Under the pieces are notes generated by a model. The model worked only from the letters and a program-made list of their open reading frames with translations. It had not been told where the DNA came from and ran no database searches. A stretch of 64,000 bases of DNA, taken from positions 1 through 64,000 of the forward strand of contig JABFGH010000007.1 of NCBI GenBank assembly GCA_013112585.1. Direction: 5' to 3'. The position numbers and the translations under genes are program-made. The stretch is from Ignavibacteriota bacterium. Lineage in GTDB: Bacteria > Bacteroidota > Ignavibacteria > Ignavibacteriales > Melioribacteraceae. Positions 15,834-54,916 of the stretch are shown here, piece by piece; position 1 is the first letter of the stretch; each line of letters starts with the position of its first letter.

Positions 15834-15951
15834 ATTTGTTCTCCTATGACTTGCAAAAATATGAAAAGATAAATTAAAAATGTTGTGAAAATTAAATCAG
15901 CAGACGTATATTTTTAGATTCAAAAAAAATCAATAGTAATTACCTATTGTA

Positions 15952-15973
15952 GAGACGTTCGGAAGAACGTCTC
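15952..15973. repeat. gagacgtt palindromic element (intergenic copy)
   Basis: Perfect 9-bp inverted repeat: gagacgttc (15952-15960) and gaacgtctc (15965-15973). The same stem occurs at 38869-38890 and, inside a coding region, at 40475-40496. Confidence 0.8.
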
Positions 15974-22141: not shown

Positions 22142-22208
22142 CTACTTCTCTAAAACCATTTGTTTAAGATTTCCAACAAGCAGTTCAAACTTATCTCCCG
22201 ATAAAAAG

Positions 22209-22278
22209 TAATAAACCAGTAAACTGGTTGTGAATCATTTTGCATTTTTATTTGCCAACGACTGAAGTCGTTGGTTAA
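22209..22278 (+). repeat. Composite repeat unit, copy 1
   Basis: About 70 bp containing the aaccagt/actggtt hairpin, the spacer gaatcattttgcattt and the ccaacgac hairpin followed by ttaa. It is directly repeated at 22830-22893 with a few substitutions and one short length change. Confidence 0.85.
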
Positions 22279-22829
22279 TCCCGAATTATGCATTAGAAAT
22301 AATTTATAAAGCTAAATAAAAATTGTCCTTGTAAATGCACTGTCATTCCTGCCCGTCCGGCAGGCGGGTATGACGGTGATTAATTTTAAAATTATGTAAG
22401 GGGCTTTAGCCCGCCTTTGCCGGCAGGCAGGCCCAAAACCATTTGGGTTATCCCAAGGATTCCTTTGGAAAAACCCAATATTTATGTTTGCTCAATATTC
22501 ACGGCGCTGAAGCACCGTGCTATTATCTCTTTTGCATAATTCGGGTTAATTTACCTGCCGAAATTTATTACCGTTTTATTTTATCCGTGGTTATTAAATA
22601 TTTGCGTCTCCGATATAATTTTACGGGACTACGAAGTAGTCAAATATAAATAACCATAGGAGAATCCTATGGAATAAAGGAACTAGCATATAACTTCAAC
22701 CCCGGCGGGGTTGAAGTATAAGTTCTGTAATTAGAACATTGACATATTTAAAAGAGTTAAGTTGTAGATTTAGGAGAGATAGTTTTATTCAACTTGTATT
22801 CCCGGGTGCTGCATAGCGGAAAACAGGGA

Positions 22830-22893
22830 TAAACCTGTAAACTGGTTATGAATCATTTTGCATTTATTTGCCAACGACTGAAGTCGTTGGTTA
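22830..22893 (+). repeat. Composite repeat unit, copy 2
   Basis: Second copy of the two-hairpin unit, same orientation, about 550 bp downstream of copy 1. The first hairpin is slightly damaged (aacctgt opposite actggtt), while the second (22871-22890) is perfect. Confidence 0.85.
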
Positions 22894-22920
22894 ACTTACC
22901 TGCTAAAAACTATTACCGCT

Positions 22921-32463: not shown

Positions 32464-32595
32464 ACACACCCCTAAATCCCCTCTCGAGAGGGGACTTTTT
32501 GTATTGAATTGGTTAGTGTCTGCTCATAATCGGAATTATCATATCGTCAATCATATTATTTTTTCCCCTCTTGAGAGGGGATTAAAGGGGTGTGT
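32464..32595. repeat. MITE-like pair of inverted 'cccctctcgagagggg' elements
   Basis: The left arm (32464-32494) begins acacacccctaaat and ends in the palindrome cccctctcgagagggg. The right arm (32564-32595) is its imperfect reverse complement (cccctcttgagagggg, then attaaaggggtgtgt). The ~69-bp centre is AT-rich and has no gene. The ~132-bp unit has the shape of a miniature inverted-repeat element. A related ccctctcc/ggagaggg stem occurs inside a coding region at 42304-42347. A frame at 32447-32653 reads SPLERGL twice purely because of the repeat. Confidence 0.75.
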
Positions 32596-32720: not shown

Positions 32721-32765
32721 TACTAACTACTAAATTCTAACTCCTAACTCCTAACTCCTAACTAC
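32721..32765. repeat. Heptamer tandem array (ctaactc)n
   Basis: Imperfect then perfect heptamers (ctaactcctaactcctaact core) running up to the stop codon of the minus-strand M36 gene. Confidence 0.8.
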
Positions 32766-38706: not shown

Positions 38707-38945
38707 CTATTTCAAATCATTCACTAACATCATTTGTTTTGTAATTGAATAATTGCCTACCGTCAATTTATAAAAACAAATTCCGCTTCATAACTGCCCT
38801 GGGATTTTTGTTCACCGCCAATGCTGCAATTTTATTGCAATGTATATCGCAAATTGTTAATTGTATGTGAGATGTTTTGCCAAACGTCTCTACGATTTTC
38901 GGGAATTACAAAGTTAATTATTGTTGAAGGGTTAAAAGGATTAAA
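38707..38945 (-). pseudogene. Remnant of a T9SS sorting domain carrying a palindromic insert
   Basis: Minus-strand translation gives FNPFNPSTIINFVIPE, then residues encoded by the gagatgttt/aaacgtctc palindrome (RRDVWQNIS), an in-frame stop, GGEQKSQGSYEAEF, and after a frameshift GICFYKLTVGNYSI followed by TKQMMLV and a stop. This is a complete sorting-domain outline with at least one stop and one frameshift. Its left end (coding sense) is cut by the cacgg/ccgtg palindrome at 38948-38970. It lies just downstream of the intact gene at 38975-40165, so it may be the end of a former neighbour. Confidence 0.8.
38869..38890. repeat. gagacgtt palindromic element inside the sorting-domain remnant
   Basis: gagatgttt (38869-38877) with aaacgtctc (38882-38890), one wobble position. 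Same family as 15952-15973 and 40475-40496. Confidence 0.75.
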
Positions 38946-38947
38946 GG

Positions 38948-38970
38948 CAGTCACGGCGGCACCGTGACTG
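38948..38970. repeat. cagtcacgg/ccgtgactg palindrome
   Basis: Perfect 9-bp arms with loop cggca. It marks the boundary between the gene at 38975-40165 (stop five bases away) and the sorting-domain remnant. The cacgg/ccgtg core is shared with 22500-22519. No T-run, so not a typical terminator. Confidence 0.8.
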
Positions 38971-38974
38971 AAAA

Positions 38975-40165
38975 TTATTTAAGTAATATCATTTTACGAG
39001 ATTGAGTATAGTTTCCCGCAGTCAATTTGTAAAAATAAACTCCGCTCGATAGTCCATCGCTATTGAAGACTACCTCGTATGTACCGGGAGATTTTTGTTG
39101 ATCAACTAAAACAGCTAATTCATTTCCAATTATATTATACACTGTTATTTTTACATTTGAGCTTTCACTTTTCACACCTGCCTGCCCGAAAGCTAGGTTT
39201 GACGGCACTTCATATTTAATTGTTGTTGTTGGATTAAACGGGTTCGGATAGTTTTGTTCGAGCACAAAATTTTTCGGAGCAGTTCTCTCATTATCAGAAA
39301 TATTTGTTAGTGGCGTCCATCCGGCTAAGCTTGCCCATAGCCACCAAGCAGCATAAGCTTTTTGGTTCGCATTTAAAGGCTGTGAATGGGCTGACGGACA
39401 ATCATACCAATCAACACCCTCTGTATGAGCGTTCTGCCATTCGATTGCCCAATTGCCATCGCGTGAGCCATTGCCGTCTGTGTCGTAATCGCAATTGTCA
39501 TTTGGAATTTTATCGCCGAAATAATTTAAGTCGGGATCCCATGCTTCAATGTCGGCAAAGTCGTAAAGAATTTTATCATTGTCCGAACAATAATTTCGTA
39601 TCTGCTCATTACGTAAATGAAGATTTCCTGAAAGCCCTGTTCCATCCAAATGTCCCGTCATATAAACAAACATAACATTCGGGAAATCAATTTCGAGCTG
39701 ATTCATCAAACTTAGATAAGTATTTATATCTACCTCCGTTGCTGAACTTACTTGTCCGCACCATGACCAGATAATAACATTAACATCCGAGTAAGAAGAG
39801 TTGTTCAAATAATTTCTTGTAGCATCAGCCCATGCAGTTCGGTTCGGATTCCCAAGGTCACTAGCACCGGATATACCTCTGTCGTGCAAATCTAAAGCGC
39901 CGCCGCTTCCGCCGTTATTCCATTCGTATTGACTGCCTGCAAAAGAAACAAGTCCTGTCATTCCGGTTGTAAGCTGACTGCCGTGTGAAGTATGCCCGTA
40001 GGCGATATGTAATTTACTCTTCGCGCTGTCAATCCATTCTGCGGGAATTTGCTGCAGCTTTGTGCATTGATGATCAATGATTAATGGACGAGTAATTTGA
40101 GCAAGCGATGAAGTAGCCGCTGAAAATATGAAGCTGAAAGTTAATAGTAGTAGAATCTTTTTCAT
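38975..40165 (-). CDS. Secreted SGNH-like hydrolase with T9SS sorting domain
   Basis: 396 residues. Signal peptide ~1-22 (SSLAQ). The body (~25-285) has conserved-looking blocks IAYGHTSHGSQL, VIIWSWCGQ, VYMTGHLDGTG and a terminal SAHSQPLNANQKAYAAWWL, consistent with a diverged SGNH/GDSL-type esterase (His near the end, Ser in HTSHGS), though I am not certain of the catalytic Ser. The sorting domain starts at QNYPNPFNPTTTIKYEVP. Between that proline and the next strand (VKITVYNIIG) lies an extra segment NLAFGQAGVKSESS, encoded by a cctgcctgcccg-type element at about 39177-39197. A paralogous position is filled by other palindromes in the genes at 40293 and 42108. Confidence 0.8.
   Translation of the reverse strand: MKKILLLLTFSFIFSAATSSLAQITRPLIIDHQCTKLQQIPAEWIDSAKSKLHIAYGHTSHGSQLTTGMTGLVSFAGSQYEWNNGGSGGALDLHDRGISGASDLGNPNRTAWADATRNYLNNSSYSDVNVIIWSWCGQVSSATEVDINTYLSLMNQLEIDFPNVMFVYMTGHLDGTGLSGNLHLRNEQIRNYCSDNDKILYDFADIEAWDPDLNYFGDKIPNDNCDYDTDGNGSRDGNWAIEWQNAHTEGVDWYDCPSAHSQPLNANQKAYAAWWLWASLAGWTPLTNISDNERTAPKNFVLEQNYPNPFNPTTTIKYEVPSNLAFGQAGVKSESSNVKITVYNIIGNELAVLVDQQKSPGTYEVVFNSDGLSSGVYFYKLTAGNYTQSRKMILLK
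39177..39197. repeat. cctgcctgcccg element inside a T9SS sorting domain
   Basis: acctgcctgcccg...taggt with weak outer arms acct/aggt. It encodes FGQAG on the minus strand, similar to VRQAG encoded by the better-preserved copy at 42322-42336. The palindrome is partly eroded, so the assignment rests on word content and on its position in the sorting domain. Confidence 0.55.
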
Positions 40166-40292
40166 TTTGAATCTCAGTTTATTTCGGCAATAGCAATAAG
40201 AGTCAAAAAAGATACCATTTGAAGATTATTAAAAACTATCTATTTAAAATTAAATTTAATTGGTTTTTTCAATTTCTCAATTATGTTGGCTT

Positions 40293-41579
40293 TTACTTCA
40301 TTAGGAGCATTTTTTTAGTGATTAAATAGGTCCCGGACTTCAATTGGTAAAAATATATTCCAGATGAAAGATTCGAAGCATCAAATTCAACTTCATAAGT
40401 ACCTGTAGTTTTTGCTTCATTAACAAGAGTTGTTATTTCATTTCCGAGTATGTCGTACACTTTTAATTGTACTTGAGACGTTTTTCCAAACGTCTCTACG
40501 CTGCCGGGGATTGTGAATTTTATTTTTGTTGTCGGGTTAAATGGGTTTGGGTAGTTTTGGGATAATGAAAATTTGAAATTACTACCTGAGCCATAATCAT
40601 CAATAGATGTAACAAGATTAACTCCATTTTTGAGAACTGAGACACCATTTCCCCATGTCCCAACCCAAACATCTGAATTATCAAATGTAACACAAAGTGC
40701 AGATGCATCGTTCAAGCCATTATTCTGATCAAAAATGACCCATCTGTTTCTATCAAAAAATGCTAGTCCACCAAATGTCGTCCCTACCCATAAATTTTCA
40801 TTTGTGTCTAGTTCTACAAAAATTAAATCATCACTCATTAAGCCAGAATTGGTTGCATTGTAGATAAACCAATTAATCCCATCGTATTGGACTAACCCCC
40901 CACCCTCCGTTGCTATCCATTTATTGTTTTGCGAATCAATTGCAATATCGATTACTGTATTGTGAGGCAAGGGACAGTTATCCATGTTATAAACTATCCA
41001 TTCTATATCATTATATTTGGCAAATCCATTATACCATGTTCCAATCCACTTATTATTATCAGGATCAATAGTTATAGATAATATTTCATTACCTGGTAAG
41101 CCAGAGTTGCTTATATGATAATTAGTCCAATTTGAACCATCAAATTTAGAAATCCCTCCTATTAAAGTTCCTATCCAAAGGTTTCCTAGTGTATCAAAAG
41201 TTAGTGAATGAATTTGATTATTAGATAAGCCAGAATTAGAACTATTGAATAAAGTCCGAATATTTCCATTTATCTTTAATAGTCCACCTTTATTTGTACC
41301 ACAGCCTATCCATTTATTATGTTCCTTATCAATACCGATCGACCATACAAGATTACTAGGTAGAAATTGTCCAGTTGTGTCAAAAGTTGCCCATGTGTTA
41401 TTTTGATAAATAGCAATTCCATCACCATAAGTGCCAATCCACTTGGCATTGTTATCATCAACTATTATTGAAGTAATCCAACCACCGATCGGTGAATTTG
41501 AATAATTATAATAAACCCATTCAAATTCTTGAGCCCAAATACTTATTGAGAAAATAAAAAATAAAAATGTTTTTAACAT
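40293..41579 (-). CDS. Secreted propeller (Reg_prop-type) protein with T9SS sorting domain
   Basis: 428 residues, signal peptide ~1-16 (ending SIWAQ). Residues ~30-330 contain about seven repeats of the two-component-regulator propeller type (NKWIGTYGDGIAIYQ, NKWIGCGTNKGGLLKI, NLWIGTLIGGISKFDG, NKWIATEGGGLVQYDG), enough for one beta-propeller with no kinase attached. The T9SS sorting domain begins QNYPNPFNPTTKIKFTIP and ends MLLMK. After the proline an insert GSVETFGKTSQ is encoded by the perfect gagacgttt/aaacgtctc palindrome (40475-40496). The product is likely a surface ligand-binding protein. It resembles the sensor part of the kinase at 27933. Confidence 0.85.
   Translation of the reverse strand: MLKTFLFFIFSISIWAQEFEWVYYNYSNSPIGGWITSIIVDDNNAKWIGTYGDGIAIYQNNTWATFDTTGQFLPSNLVWSIGIDKEHNKWIGCGTNKGGLLKINGNIRTLFNSSNSGLSNNQIHSLTFDTLGNLWIGTLIGGISKFDGSNWTNYHISNSGLPGNEILSITIDPDNNKWIGTWYNGFAKYNDIEWIVYNMDNCPLPHNTVIDIAIDSQNNKWIATEGGGLVQYDGINWFIYNATNSGLMSDDLIFVELDTNENLWVGTTFGGLAFFDRNRWVIFDQNNGLNDASALCVTFDNSDVWVGTWGNGVSVLKNGVNLVTSIDDYGSGSNFKFSLSQNYPNPFNPTTKIKFTIPGSVETFGKTSQVQLKVYDILGNEITTLVNEAKTTGTYEVEFDASNLSSGIYFYQLKSGTYLITKKMLLMK
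40475..40496. repeat. gagacgtt palindromic element inside a coding region
   Basis: Arms gagacgttt (40475-40483) and aaacgtctc (40488-40496), perfect 9 bp. Located in frame within the sorting-domain loop of the gene at 40293-41579. Intergenic copy at 15952-15973. Confidence 0.85.
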
Positions 41580-41648
41580 TTTCTAGATCCTCTATAATTT
41601 GTTTTAATAGTATTTTCACAATTACATAGTGGCTTCATAAAAAATCCC

Positions 41649-42083
41649 TTACTTTGCTGGAATTAGTTGTAAATCAATCTCATAATCAAAATCAGGATAG
41701 GCTGTTGCGTAAGAAAAAACGAAATTTTCAGAAGTAGTTAGAGTTACCTGCCATGAAGAATCAAAATAAATTGCTTTTACAGTACGATCACCATATCCAT
41801 AGGGACAAATCATTATGCTGTAATATCCGTTGTTGTTAGTATAGGTTTGTGCAAGAACCGACTGCTCCTCATCAAGAAGTTGAACTGTAGCACTACATTG
41901 AGGATTTCTTCCTTTATACACGATTCCATGTACGTAAGTATCTGGTATTTTATAGAAAGAATTAGTCAACTGATTGTGCTCATTATCAGGTGTTGAGGTT
42001 GGTTTTGTAATTTCGACCTGACAATTAGCGAACAAAAAAATGAATACCAAATAATAAATTACTTGATTAATTGTAAGTTTCAT
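41649..42083 (-). CDS. Lipoprotein with carboxypeptidase-regulatory-like domain
   Basis: 144 residues. Lipoprotein signal with lipobox FLFANC (Cys ~21). The mature part (~50-140) looks like a single Ig-like carboxypeptidase regulatory domain (HGIVYKGRNPQCSATVQLLD, then YTNNNGYYSIMICPYG), a common surface or periplasmic module. It lies 24 bp after the gene at 42108-44387 on the same strand, so the two may be co-transcribed. Confidence 0.7.
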   Translation of the reverse strand: MKLTINQVIYYLVFIFLFANCQVEITKPTSTPDNEHNQLTNSFYKIPDTYVHGIVYKGRNPQCSATVQLLDEEQSVLAQTYTNNNGYYSIMICPYGYGDRTVKAIYFDSSWQVTLTTSENFVFSYATAYPDFDYEIDLQLIPAK

Positions 42084-42107
42084 TTTTAACTACAAGTTAG
42101 TGAATAA

Positions 42108-44387
42108 TTATTTTATTAGAACCATCTTTTGGTTTTGAAAAAAACTCTCTGCTTTTAGTTGATAAAAATAAACCCCTGAAGACAATCCTTGTCCATCAAA
42201 TTCAACCTCATAAGTGCCTGCAGTTTTTGCTTCATTAACTAATGTTTTTATTTCATTTCCGAGTATGTCGTAAACTTTTAAAGTTACCAACCTCTCACTA
42301 TTTCCCTCTCCTTGGTAACCTGCCTGCCGGACAGGCTGGGGAGAGGGGTTAAAGGGTGAGGTAGGGATAGTGAATTTAATTTTTGTAGTTGGATTGAATG
42401 GGTTAGGGTAGTTTTGAGAAAGCGAAAATGTTTTTGGAAATGCCTCAAAATTATTTCTCTCATCAACTGAAACCACTACGCCCGGTTTGTACGCGAAGAG
42501 ATAACCGTTTGCAGTTGCAATAAGAGCGGTCTTACCGCCTGCCCAAGTAATTCGCTGTAAGCCATGTTCGGCTGTTAATGTTAGCGGTACAAATAAATTA
42601 TTGAATGCATCGTAAACAAAATATTCATTTGGTTCTCCGGTAACATTGGTATTCAAAACTATATAACCCGACCATTGTTTACCAAACGCCTTGGGAGTTA
42701 TATATTCACTGTACTCATGTTTATTCATGCTGTAACCGATATATTTTCCATTTTGTGTGTACATTAAAAAAACTTTTTCACGAGCGTACACATCGTTTAT
42801 AGATGATGCCGAAGTAAAATGATATTCTTGATTTGTGTAGCCGTCGTAAAAGTAGGTTTGGTTAATATTTGTTAAATTTAGGTAAAAGTAATTTCCCAAC
42901 GATCCGAAATAGGATGTTGATGCTCTGTCTTTTTCTATCCAATTATTAAAGCGCGGAGAATACAAAAAGAATTTTGTGACTGCACCTAGATCCGTAGCCA
43001 GTAAAGCATAAAAATCACTCCCTCTATAAACCGAGCTTGAAAGTTCACTGGGAATAACAAAAGAAATTAAATTATTGTCATCACGCGTATAACTGAAAAC
43101 ATGTGCTGTATCAGCGTATTGTTCATTATATGCAAATACATCCCAAAAGTTTGCCGTGCCTCTTGCTGCAATATCGGGATGAACACTTTGAGTCCATTGA
43201 ACAGGGTGTGTAAACGAGCTGCCTGTTTTTACATCATACATATAAAAGTTATTTTCATCATATGCGTCAATTATTTCACCGCCGCATATAAAACTCATCA
43301 GACCCCAATTAAACAAAGGTGTATCAAAATGTGTATAGGAATTTGTTTCTGCCGAATAAACAATATACTCAAGCTTATCACCCTGTGCACCATTCCGAAT
43401 TATAACACATGCAATCTGTCCGCCGCATTTTCTACCGGCAACCTGGTAATCACTTCCGGCATAAGTATATTCAAAAGTGTGTTCTGCAAAATCACCAATC
43501 ACTGTATTAAATACCCAGAAATAATACCTAAATAAATCACCGCTAATTTGTTCGTTAGTAACAAACATCTCGCAAATTAAAGGGGAAACTAATTCTTCAT
43601 AAACATCCGGTCCTACTGCTTCAATTAAACGAGTGTGAGATTTAGTTTTAAACTGACCTGAATAAGCACTATATCCAATAGCAAGGTAAGGCGGTTCATT
43701 CCTTTGTTCGTAGGCGAATCCATGATCTAAATGTTTTGCAAGAAGAATATAATTCTTGGCGATACTATCAAAAGTTTTTGTTATTAAGCTATAAGCGGTA
43801 AGTGTTCTTGGTGGTTCGTTCAAAATTGAGAGACTCAAATAAATATAATCATTCTTCCCAATTACGCCCCCCTGAAATGGTGCGGAACCCGGAGTTTGAT
43901 AAGTAGTTGAGTGCCAGGTCCCATCCTCTGCATCAAACACATAAAACAACTGATCCGTTACAAAATAGGCAAAATTATCCAAGCAGCCGTAGGTATATCC
44001 ACCTGTGTTTAACAAGGTGCCGGAATAATTAATAGCGGAAAAAGTATGAGTTAATGCACTGTAGCCGACTACAATAGAATCATTATAAATCATAGCAGCA
44101 TTACCATGGGCTTCGGAGTCTTCCCAATCTAATTCCGTAGGAACGAGAAGCACTTGCCAATCACCGTATTCAATATCGAATGCATAAACAGCCTGACTTG
44201 TGTCGTCAGCAAAAATGATGCATGTTTCACCTAATGAATAATTATAAAGTCCGGGAAAAGTGCCGGGCAGTTGAGTGCTGATCCATTCTGCTGTTTGGCA
44301 GAAGCTGTTGTTATAGAGAACAAGAAAAAGTAGGGCAGTAGATAATAACCGGATAGGAATAAGTAAACATGCTTTGATCGTTTTCAT
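42108..44387 (-). CDS. Large secreted protein with T9SS sorting domain interrupted by a palindromic insert
   Basis: 759 residues from ATG 44387, which has GGAGG at proper spacing; a GTG at 44399 would add four residues and leave no ribosome-binding site. Signal peptide ~1-31. Residues ~35-660 are repetitive, aromatic and strand-rich (YAFDIEYGDWQVLL, FYVFDAEDGTWHSTTY, then YMYDVKTGSSF), suggesting kelch/propeller-like blades; no enzyme motif seen. The sorting domain (QNYPNPFNPTTKIKFTIP) is followed by an insert of ~21 residues containing PVRQAGYQGEGN before LKVYDILG resumes. The insert is encoded by the nested palindrome at 42304-42347. Confidence 0.8.
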   Translation of the reverse strand: MKTIKACLLIPIRLLSTALLFLVLYNNSFCQTAEWISTQLPGTFPGLYNYSLGETCIIFADDTSQAVYAFDIEYGDWQVLLVPTELDWEDSEAHGNAAMIYNDSIVVGYSALTHTFSAINYSGTLLNTGGYTYGCLDNFAYFVTDQLFYVFDAEDGTWHSTTYQTPGSAPFQGGVIGKNDYIYLSLSILNEPPRTLTAYSLITKTFDSIAKNYILLAKHLDHGFAYEQRNEPPYLAIGYSAYSGQFKTKSHTRLIEAVGPDVYEELVSPLICEMFVTNEQISGDLFRYYFWVFNTVIGDFAEHTFEYTYAGSDYQVAGRKCGGQIACVIIRNGAQGDKLEYIVYSAETNSYTHFDTPLFNWGLMSFICGGEIIDAYDENNFYMYDVKTGSSFTHPVQWTQSVHPDIAARGTANFWDVFAYNEQYADTAHVFSYTRDDNNLISFVIPSELSSSVYRGSDFYALLATDLGAVTKFFLYSPRFNNWIEKDRASTSYFGSLGNYFYLNLTNINQTYFYDGYTNQEYHFTSASSINDVYAREKVFLMYTQNGKYIGYSMNKHEYSEYITPKAFGKQWSGYIVLNTNVTGEPNEYFVYDAFNNLFVPLTLTAEHGLQRITWAGGKTALIATANGYLFAYKPGVVVSVDERNNFEAFPKTFSLSQNYPNPFNPTTKIKFTIPTSPFNPSPQPVRQAGYQGEGNSERLVTLKVYDILGNEIKTLVNEAKTAGTYEVEFDGQGLSSGVYFYQLKAESFFQNQKMVLIK
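42304..42347. repeat. Nested palindromic element inside a coding region
   Basis: Outer arms ccctctcc (42304-42311) and ggagaggg (42340-42347), inner arms gcctg/caggc within 42322-42336. It combines the ccctctcc family (see 32464-32595) and the cctgcc family (see 22342-22374). Flanking ttaaagggtgagg at 42349-42361 is also typical of the intergenic element. It is in frame in the sorting domain of the gene at 42108-44387. Confidence 0.85.
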
Positions 44388-44455
44388 CTTTTCCTCCACG
44401 TTTGTTTATCTATTTAATTAAAGAAACATATTACGCAGATTTTAATATTGGGCTT

Positions 44456-44943: not shown

Positions 44944-46602
44944 TTAATTTCCGCAAACTTGTTCGAAAACTCGTTTAAAGTTTCCGCCTAAAATTTTTTC
45001 AACTTCTGATCTCGTATAACCATGCTCCAGCAATGCTAATGTTAATGCCGGAAATTTAGAAACATCTTCTAAACCGTTTACTGTGTTATCTCCAATTCCG
45101 TCAAAGTCGGAGCCGATTGCTACGTATTCTATTCCGACTAAGTTTACTATGTGGTCTATATGTGAAATTACTGTATTAATGTCAACTGATGAACTTGGTG
45201 ATCCAAGAAAAGGAGGATAAAAAACTATTCCAACTACTCCGCCGGAATTTGCAATATCAACAATTTGTGAGTCGTATAGGTTTCTGTAATGATCTTCAAT
45301 TGCTCTTGCGCCGGAGTGTGAGGCAATTATCGGGTTCGTCGTCTCTTCCAAAATATCCTGAATAGTTTTAATTCCTGTATGGGAAACATCGATCATTATT
45401 CCGAGCGAATCCATTGTTCTAATTACCTCTCTGCCGAAATCACTCAGTCCAACAGTGGTTGAATCTGCATCTTGCGCGGATACCGCCCAATCCGTGCTGT
45501 TATTCCATGTAATCGTCATGTATCTCATTCCGTCGTTGTAGAGGTCTATAAGTTTATCAATGCTGTTTTCAATTGTGTGTCCGCCCTCAACAGCGAGCAC
45601 TGCTGCAATTTTTCCGCTTTCGTTTATTGTTTCAGCTTGTGCTAAAGTGCGGGCTTGGCTAATATCGTTACCGTTTACAAAAAGTTCAGCGTTAAAAATC
45701 TGAACCATGTTTTGACTTTCCTGGTAAGGGTTATTGGGGAAATTATAGGGACTAACCCAGATGGCAAAAAATTGTATATCCACTCCACCGATTTTCATAC
45801 GGGGAATATCGGTATGATTATAATTATGCGGATCAGCAAGATGATAATTCGGATCGCCTGCCATTACTTCGAGCACATCGTTATGTAAATCTATTAACGT
45901 TGCAGCAGAGTGAACAGTCTGCAGTGTATAATCAAAATGCTGATTACCGGAAATTGTAACATTTATTGTATCGGAAATGTAACCAAGTTTTGAAGTAACA
46001 ATACTTAAATCAAAAGAGCTGCTTTTGGTTAGCGGTTCATTAGAAAAATTTATACCTTGCCGAATTTCTGATAAACCAAAAGTTTCGCCGCCATCAAGCT
46101 GAATCATTTTTTTTGTAATAGACTGATTGTTAAAAGTAATAGTATAAAAATATACTCCGGCACTTTTACCGCCCTGCCAGTCAATTGAGTAATTGCCCGG
46201 TGATAGAAACTGTGAGCGTGAATCAATTAATTGTCCCAATACATTATGCACTGAAATTTGTGTGATACCATCAGAATTAATTTTAAACTGAATTTTAGTA
46301 GAAGGATTAAACGGATTAGGATAATTTTGAGCAACGTAAAATGAACTTGGTGAAAAGTTATCGTCATCTACTGTGGTAAGTATATTGTATTGCCAATTCC
46401 CGATTGAGTTGGCTGTAACAGTATCTCTAGTCAGATTAGAATTATTTATAATTTCTATTTGAGGATTTTTTACTCGAGTGTTGGATGTTAAGTCAGTTAC
46501 AGTTCCGGTTAAAGTTTGGGAGAACAAGAGACTGCCGGTTATAATAGAAAGTTGAAATGTTAATAAAAATAGTTTGAATATGTTTTTTAATTGTTCAATC
46601 AT
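44944..46602 (-). CDS. M19 membrane-dipeptidase-like enzyme with an internal T9SS-type domain
   Basis: 552 residues. Signal peptide ~1-29; a short carboxypeptidase-regulatory-like stretch (TLTGTVTDLTSNTRVKNPQI). At ~92-170 there is a complete sorting-domain-like module (AQNYPNPFNPSTKIQFKI, then VHNVLGQLIDS, SAGVYFYTITFNNQ and KKMIQL), normally found only at the extreme C-terminus. The dipeptidase domain follows at ~235-550 with all expected metal and catalytic residues: LHNDV (His/Asp), VEGGHT (bridging Glu), VSHTG, ASHSGARA and GSDFDG. It should hydrolyse dipeptides or related amides outside the cytoplasm. It ends without a second sorting domain (FKRVFEQVCGN). Confidence 0.88.
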   Translation of the reverse strand: MIEQLKNIFKLFLLTFQLSIITGSLLFSQTLTGTVTDLTSNTRVKNPQIEIINNSNLTRDTVTANSIGNWQYNILTTVDDDNFSPSSFYVAQNYPNPFNPSTKIQFKINSDGITQISVHNVLGQLIDSRSQFLSPGNYSIDWQGGKSAGVYFYTITFNNQSITKKMIQLDGGETFGLSEIRQGINFSNEPLTKSSSFDLSIVTSKLGYISDTINVTISGNQHFDYTLQTVHSAATLIDLHNDVLEVMAGDPNYHLADPHNYNHTDIPRMKIGGVDIQFFAIWVSPYNFPNNPYQESQNMVQIFNAELFVNGNDISQARTLAQAETINESGKIAAVLAVEGGHTIENSIDKLIDLYNDGMRYMTITWNNSTDWAVSAQDADSTTVGLSDFGREVIRTMDSLGIMIDVSHTGIKTIQDILEETTNPIIASHSGARAIEDHYRNLYDSQIVDIANSGGVVGIVFYPPFLGSPSSSVDINTVISHIDHIVNLVGIEYVAIGSDFDGIGDNTVNGLEDVSKFPALTLALLEHGYTRSEVEKILGGNFKRVFEQVCGN

Positions 46603-54771: not shown

Positions 54772-54795
54772 TTTAAATGACTTTAAAGCTATTTT

Positions 54796-54875
54796 TCTGA
54801 CTTCTGACTTCTGACTTCTGACTTCTGACTTCTGACTTTTGAATTCTGACTTTTGAATTCTGACTTTTGACTTCT
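54796..54875. repeat. Heptamer tandem array (ttctgac)n
   Basis: About six perfect ttctgac heptamers followed by a degenerate 14-mer version (ttctgacttttgaa) repeated twice more. It lies between the 76-residue gene and the convergent zinc-ribbon gene. Same unit length as the array at 32721-32765 but a different word. Confidence 0.85.
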
Positions 54876-54916
54876 TAATTACAAAATCGACCGATGATTT
54901 TCATTTTTCAAATAAA

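Follow-up and report, generated by a model that had tools for sequence, protein, structure and literature searches.

Palindromes of bacterial genomes often appear as odd peptides in predicted proteins, and repetitive extragenic palindromes (REPs) are thought to be short forms of genes for REP-associated tyrosine transposases (RAYTs). In-frame palindromes in proteins have been described in Rickettsia and in REP-rich genomes, where the relevant part of the published account places them over many genes and sites (PMC3733652). Here we report on palindromic elements in a 64-kb stretch (the window; positions 1 to 64,000 of contig JABFGH010000007.1) of the genome of an Ignavibacteriota bacterium (GCA_013112585.1; G000, the source genome). 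They lie in frame in one loop, Lβ2β3, of the C-terminal sorting domains (CTDs) of the type IX secretion system (T9SS). The original prediction, made from the window, had likened them to the Rickettsia palindromic elements (RPEs). Compared by description alone, the likeness extends to short palindromes lying in frame in protein genes. RPEs, however, are scattered over many unrelated genes and sites, whereas in the sampled DNA of this study one loop of one domain family holds nearly all copies seen in real genes.

The host is the T9SS type A sorting domain (TIGR04183/PF18962), from which the domains described here differ by additional residues, often repeat-derived, in Lβ2β3 and also in Lβ5β6. 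In the sections that concern the signal, a study of T9SS CTDs places the essential export motifs in Lβ3β4 and at the C-terminus, reports that a protein with an insertion in loop Lβ5β6 was exported normally, and notes that published CTDs differ widely in the lengths of their loops, Lβ3β4 excepted (PMC11285876). Our loop names rely on the correspondence of YDILGNE with the published Lβ3β4 motif rather than on coordinates; as judged by this match, the insertion site is Lβ2β3, away from the motifs required for export. No paper on palindromes in T9SS sorting domains was found in the open-licence literature.

Results

The source genome amounts to 4.94 Mb in 77 contigs and holds 196 exact PNPFNP DNA motifs and at least 150 T9SS sorting-domain profile matches (150 scored of 241 candidates). 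All seven window proteins tested by profile search reached the TIGR04183 cut-off (23 bits), and in six of them, including all three with inserts, the domain is C-terminal, the exception being the protein at 44944. A standard window CTD has a 4-residue loop between the strands TTKIKFxIP and VxLKVYDxLG. The proteins at 38975, 40293 and 42108 have a longer loop, and 38707 holds a decayed copy of the domain.

The genome-wide check of sorting domains proposed by the original prediction was made on 104 pieces of the source genome (1,172,864 bases, picked around CTDs), in which genes were called by simple open reading frame (ORF) rules. It yielded 166 parsed CTDs, the 44944 domain falling outside the counts through the length filter of the script. 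Counted in residues up to the next strand, the loop had the standard length of 18 in 125 CTDs, 19 to 21 in five and at least 22 (long loops) in 36. A perfect hairpin (stem of at least 7 bp) was present in 17 of the 36 long loops and in 1 of the 125 standard loops (p = 4e-12). Many long loops are thus palindromes, and for most inserts this, together with the matches between genes given below, refutes the view that the loops merely vary in length without repeat-derived sequence. On contigs 1 to 12, where 100 motif places were listed and 10 gave no parse, long loops occur in 25 of the 90 parsed CTDs.

Strong hairpins (stem of at least 8, with at least 4 GC pairs) had been counted earlier in 1,114,218 bases with 149 CTDs, again in stretches picked around CTDs. 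Nine of them lie in 4.35 kb of CTD loop and none in 31.5 kb of other CTD sequence; outside CTDs, the ~945 kb of other coding DNA contain 19 and the 133 kb of intergenic DNA contain 100. The density in the loop is therefore 2.07 per kb, compared with 0.75 per kb between genes (p = 0.008), and ~100 times that of other coding DNA (p = 6e-15). Five of the 19 hairpins in other coding DNA resemble repeat copies, and their ORFs, of at most 100 amino acids (aa), are apparently spurious.

The inserts also recur as DNA between genes. Used as queries, the loop inserts matched 43 distinct intergenic and 4 coding places outside CTDs, after removal of three decayed CTDs, while control CTD segments matched 12 intergenic and 74 coding places (p = 3e-19). 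A search with all intergenic DNA matched 15 CTD loops (4.6 kb of loop sequence), while the 960 kb of other coding DNA gave matches at 21 places. The 15 become 12 once two loops matching only a decayed CTD and one low-complexity stretch are removed, and many of the 21 are AT-rich. In this repeat-library test a loose setting (15 nucleotides [nt], 88%) was replaced by a stricter one, chance matches being abundant in AT-rich coding DNA.

About ten types of element, by our own grouping, share this one loop in diverged CTDs of many genera. They comprise A (VETFGKTS), A2 (GTAGGGACAAGTCGCGACTTGTC), the GTAGGGAACGAAAATTTTCGTTC type, E (GCATTGAATGCGTC, with GTAG at both ends), C, D, B (alone or nested), the 'ATGCTGAACTCGGTTCAGCAT', 'CATTGCGA..' and CCGTCAGCCGACGG types, and others. 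A, A2, E and the AACGAAAATTTTCGTT type start with GTAG, except for one older A copy, and thereby resemble the GTAG superfamily of REPs, palindromes of 20 to 40 bp with GTAG at one end in the pertinent part of PMC3733652. B, C and D differ in having no GTAG, and the high copy number of that superfamily is not reached by A, with 9 exact places in 4.94 Mb. Several types, A, C and D among them, are also found between genes; A2, E and the AACGAAAATTTTCGTT type had no match outside CTDs in the sampled DNA. The C element, 54 nt with two nested stems, has a minimum free energy (MFE) of -33.5 kcal/mol (z -5.4). Its 14 exact places in the source genome are distributed over 7 CTD loops, 6 intergenic sites, 1 apparent CTD remnant and no other real gene. 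With intergenic DNA ~100 times longer than the loops, p is ~1e-11 by rough lengths; this value, like that for the A copies, was computed for 196 loops of 30 nt and an intergenic share of 12%, with the CTD-like remnant excluded.

In the window, the largest insert belongs to a 763-aa protein with a C-terminal T9SS type A sorting domain (42108 to 44399, minus strand; TIGR04183, 23.3 bits; PF18962, 31.7 bits). A C-type element of 74 nt lies in frame in its Lβ2β3 (42290 to 42363, minus strand), gives the loop peptide TSPFNPSPQPVRQAGYQGEGNSERL (42288-42362) and folds with an MFE of -31.7 kcal/mol (z -3.9). Nested in it is a separate B-type palindrome, CAGCCTGTCCGGCAGGCAGGT (cctgcc/ggcagg; 42318 to 42338, minus strand), which most C copies in other CTDs lack. 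The gene at 40293 to 41579 (minus strand) encodes a 428-aa Reg_prop propeller protein with a C-terminal sorting domain (38.1 bits), whose Lβ2β3 holds a GTAG-headed 27-nt palindrome of type A, GTAGAGACGTTTGGAAAAACGTCTCAA, read in frame as VETFGKTSQ (40473 to 40499, minus strand). These two proteins are nearest-neighbor paralogs with different elements. The 396-aa protein at 38975 to 40165 (minus strand; C-terminal sorting domain, 28.4 bits) has the long loop SNLAFGQAGVKSESSN (39155-39202), and a decayed sorting-domain remnant (38707 to 38974, minus strand), in pieces in different frames and with stops, contains an A-type palindrome, GAGATGTTTTGCCAAACGTCTC (38869 to 38890, plus strand).

The original prediction had placed palindrome-encoded extra residues in all four of these domains. 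This holds for 40293, 42108 and the remnant. In 38975 there is only a partial B-like stretch (39177 to 39196, minus strand; weak evidence), and the insert (NLAFGQAGVKSESSN) contains no perfect hairpin and has no match elsewhere in the sampled DNA. The predicted gagacgttt/aaacgtctc element was recovered as type A in 40293, in the remnant and in an intergenic copy, GTAGAGACGTTCGGAAGAACGTCTC (15949 to 15973, plus strand). The predicted cctgcc/ggcagg element was likewise found in 42108 and between genes (22348 to 22368, plus strand), its presence in 38975 being partial. The intergenic palindromes at 32464 to 32494 (ACACACCCCT..CCCCTCTCGAGAGGGGA) and 32565 to 32595 (CCCCTCTTGAGAGGGGATTAAAGGGGTGTGT), both on the plus strand, had been equated with the 42108 element. 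They belong instead to a sister type, D (ACACACCCC..CCCCTCTCGAGAGGGG), distinct from C (ACCTCACCC..CCCTCTCCTT..AAGGAGAGGG), whose intergenic copies lie elsewhere in the genome. Of the four domains taken to have normal loops, those of 10468, 12462 and 32762 show the standard 18-residue spacing, while that of 44944 sits internally. The latter gene (44944-46602) encodes an M19 dipeptidase of 552 aa in which the sorting domain occupies residues 94-167, ahead of the dipeptidase domain.

Three features reported here were absent from the original prediction: the nuclease link described below, non-palindromic long loops of the VKGQMAN type, and a second site. This second site is Lβ5β6, before SSGVYFY, where the insert TCCGTCAGCCGACGGA (SVSRRI and variants) was found by pattern in 15 of the 166 CTDs. 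B-type inserts also occur there (examples of Lβ5β6 inserts are L042, L043 and L031). The frames of insert-bearing CTD genes are open on both sides of the insert.

The C-type inserts are sharply bounded. Those of equal length (6 of 9 C loops, in 7 pairs; all four A and three C entries left out) are 99% identical, while flanking bins of 15 nt are 52-79% identical. Third codon positions beside the insert agree at 0.47-0.59 among nine C-bearing CTDs, compared with 0.43 for uninserted pairs, and four identical 53-nt inserts lie in CTDs whose nearby third positions are almost as diverged as those of uninserted pairs. As read from these divergences, with the adjoining silent sites saturated, C-type inserts arrived recently and are far younger than their host domains. 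Paralogs differ in the same loop: in the L131 pair the D element is present in one and absent from the other, and six tandem genes (C6:195913-207638) have four different loops. The left junctions vary too, following either KFS/KFT or IP.

The structural context of the insert was explored with an AlphaFold2 model of the 42108 CTD, built on 33 aligned sequences (mean predicted local distance difference test score [pLDDT], 80). The score falls to 58 for residues 21-30 and to 46 for residues 31-40, which cover most of the insert, and is 87-95 in the blocks from residue 51 on. The insert is best regarded as a flexible, tolerated and probably harmless loop, and its peptide probably lacks a function. 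A Foldseek search returned Ig-like folds, none below an E value of 0.001; the weak hits include the T9SS CTDs 8qb1, 8glk and 5m11.

Loops of this kind are found in many related genera, where palindromes of additional types occupy the site. A comparison of the window genes with 20 genomes matched only the CTD of 42108, in 2 of the 20, one of these being the source genome itself. Since the nearest genomes compared belong to other genera, paralogs and other genera were used in place of orthologs. Searches for relatives used C-bearing CTD queries, so their matches are biased to C-like loops and a match alone is no proof of a palindrome. The record titles of the best 80 matches are mostly Ignavibacteria and neighboring groups. 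At these 80 loci, 22 of 107 CTDs have long loops, and a hairpin, differing between species, was present in 9 of the 22 compared with 1 of 82 standard loops. Across the class, a C-bearing CTD matched 30 of 294 genomes (26 of 151 genera), and in the 30 loci read a hairpin was present in 16 of 31 long loops. The palindrome copies that lie in CTD loops are all six in G282 (also at 3 mismatches), both in G191, two of four in G177 and three of the four exact C places in G015.

Of the four copies in G177, one sits in frame within methionine synthase (MetH), adjoining a DUF559 domain. A search of 12 genomes for DUF559 (PF04480) gave 37 matches in 11 of them. A C/D-like palindrome (stem of at least 7 containing CCC and GGG, no more than about 260 bp from the domain) stands beside 26 of the 30 DUF559 loci read, on both sides in 15. 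Among 623 control ORFs, taken from the source genome alone, a palindrome stands beside 39 and on both sides of none (p<1e-20). The ORFs of loci fetched for their palindromes gave 9 of 64, none with both sides. In the source genome, the DUF559 gene at C21:64726 is bordered by a C element with nested B, which matches the 42108 element at 57 of 69 positions, and by a plain C that agrees with the CTD-loop C at 46 of 52; the one at C42:18400 lies between D elements. The palindrome of the CTD loops and that of the DUF559 flanks are the same within the source genome (C, D) and within G177 (an exact 21-nt palindrome). The pairing extends to plasmids of three other phyla: of eight plasmid loci chosen from 38 records (six cyanobacterial, one Deinococcus, one Sphingomonas), all have palindromes, five of them on both sides, compared with 55 and 1 of 784 control windows.

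DUF559 and its palindromes also lie in frame within larger proteins, namely MetH (G177, G221, G012), HsdR (G013, G012) and a large Pseudanabaena protein that looks like a DNA methylase. In the HsdR proteins (L323 and L325, from G013 and G012) they lie between HSDR_N and the ATPase, and another palindrome-like peptide is encoded upstream. DUF559 is related to Vsr nucleases. Its function is given as unknown in Pfam, and the restriction-endonuclease family PF18741 also matches one DUF559 gene above its cut-off. No paper linking DUF559 to palindromes was found in the open-licence literature.

With regard to the GTAG-headed types, A, A2 and E do not flank any of the 7 loci parsed of 8 Y1-transposase loci in the source genome, L111 having given no ORF. 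RAYT-like genes at L116, L117 and L118 (contigs C10, C37 and C9) have palindromes of their own on both sides (GTAGATTGCTTGCAATCT; TGTCGAGGACCATTCCTCGACA).

Several further observations concern the repeats and the sorting domains. At C12:63176, an A-type loop copy has its stem changed on both sides (GAGATGT/ACATCTC) with pairing kept, which may be a paired change or reflect another source copy. By our reading, further decayed intergenic CTD remnants occur at C8:~121780-122050, C5:~124140-124220 and C17:25456, two of them with a C-type element. Contigs C2, C9, C17 and C33 begin 134-137 bases beyond a sorting-domain end. The assembly thus seems to break near these repeats, possibly with the loss or collapse of some CTD copies. 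The intergenic stretch at 22142-22920 of the window is crowded with many different short palindromes and includes a 32-nt repeat, TTTATTTGCCAACGACTGAAGTCGTTGGTTAA, in two identical copies. Heptamer arrays are found at 54795-54885 (TTCTGAC) and at 32721-32762 (CTAACTC), the latter reaching the stop codon of gene 32762.

Discussion

We consider it rather likely that Lβ2β3 in Ignavibacteria and their relatives is a recurrent, preferred landing site of small palindromic mobile elements, which are kept as in-frame peptides. The original prediction of a tolerated or preferred landing site for different element families is supported, and the hairpin density together with the six of six copies in G282 leans to "preferred". 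Two properties would explain the use of this loop: its distance from the export motifs, which makes inserts harmless, and the presence of one and the same target in ~200 similar CTDs. C and D would be short, non-autonomous forms of an element made of palindrome, nuclease gene and palindrome, and may move by a DUF559 nuclease acting in trans, through a cut followed by copying; no movement has been observed. The GTAG-headed types would be REP-like and depend on a different machinery, for which the RAYT-like transposases of the genome are candidates. Loop-to-loop copying may contribute.

Tolerance alone would explain the pattern if insertion were random and survived only where harmless, Lβ2β3 being the most harmless and most numerous such place. 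We regard this as unlikely, even though the published variation of loop length, the harmless insertion in another CTD loop and the low-confidence prediction for the insert agree with it. Since intergenic DNA is ~100 times longer than the loops, mere tolerance predicts that intergenic copies outnumber loop copies. This is true for A, which is mostly intergenic, but false for C, with its 7 loop copies compared with 6 between genes and one CTD-like remnant; the excess of strong hairpins in the loop over intergenic DNA and the G282 copies argue in the same direction. A single insertion per family, followed by duplication of the CTD or by gene conversion of the tract around the loop, has a similarly small chance of being the explanation. 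Within each of the types A, A2, C and E, strand and frame are the same in every CTD copy, insert-bearing CTDs are mutual neighbors, and the tandem cluster on C6 looks duplicated. Nevertheless, with sharp edges and diverged flanks, whole-CTD duplication or long conversion tracts explain the identity of the inserts poorly, the four identical 53-nt inserts being a case in point. Close paralogs also carry different elements, and left junctions vary.

A function of the insert, either as a hairpin in the mRNA that sets the pace of translation ahead of the sorting domain or as a peptide that tunes export or anchoring, would account for the constant position of strong hairpins such as C close to the 3' end of the gene and for the recurrence of the peptides. 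It is very improbable, given that 125 of 166 CTDs are standard, that the inserts differ greatly in sequence and length, and that close paralogs differ. Ordinary variation in loop length with chance palindromes is the least credible explanation, to be given almost no weight. Long loops without a palindrome do occur (the VKGQMAN type; GKWKSDNG in L157), but the hairpin counts in long and standard loops, the contrast of intergenic to coding matches between inserts and controls, and the recurrence of several types as the same DNA between genes all contradict it.

A number of observations weigh against a preferred landing site served by palindromic elements. Any match outside CTDs was found for 24 of 36 inserts and for 62 of 125 control segments, so that the two differ in the location of their matches and not in the rate of having one, and 12 of the 36 inserts had none in the sample. 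Some long loops are non-palindromic (VKGQMAN, NYTGANYFI), the excess of loop over intergenic DNA is modest for hairpins in general, as its p-value indicates, and seven of the nine exact A places are intergenic. Strand and frame do not vary among the CTD copies of A, of A2, of C or of E. We read two of the six C frames as open, so independent random insertion would be expected in both; the constancy also fits copying between CTDs. The nearest neighbor of an insert-bearing CTD is itself insert-bearing in 55 of 60 cases, and this clustering would also be compatible with an older, predisposed subfamily. That count uses only nearest neighbors by distance on the rows of a weakly resolved CTD DNA tree (162 nt, 270 rows), in which the label 'oth' is a mix of unlike loops. 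As to the nuclease, 4 of the 30 DUF559 loci have no such palindrome nearby, the control ORFs come from one genome and the DUF559 loci from 11, and in G191, G282, G221, G291 and G015 the DUF559 flanks are related but not identical to the CTD-loop palindromes. None of the 30 loci lies in a CTD loop.

C/D-like GC-rich palindromes pair with DUF559 genes in relatives of the source genome and on plasmids. It is conceivable, and we propose it tentatively, that DUF559 and these palindromes form an undescribed class of mobile element that sits in frame without splicing, the short forms of which prefer Lβ2β3 and have the export tag as their main home. The CTD inserts differ from the DUF559 loci in having no nuclease gene. 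Inteins and homing endonucleases are similar in that a nuclease lies in frame inside MetH and HsdR, at similar places in different genomes; the DUF559 insertions differ from them by their palindromic ends.

In-frame palindromes were already known in proteins, scattered over many genes. Here mobile DNA is concentrated on one loop of one domain family in many genera of one class, and the inserts amount to a natural insertion data set that shows where the T9SS export signal allows variation. The link to one particular nuclease family opens to experiment the old question of the agent that mobilizes small palindromes in bacteria, for example in culturable cyanobacteria.

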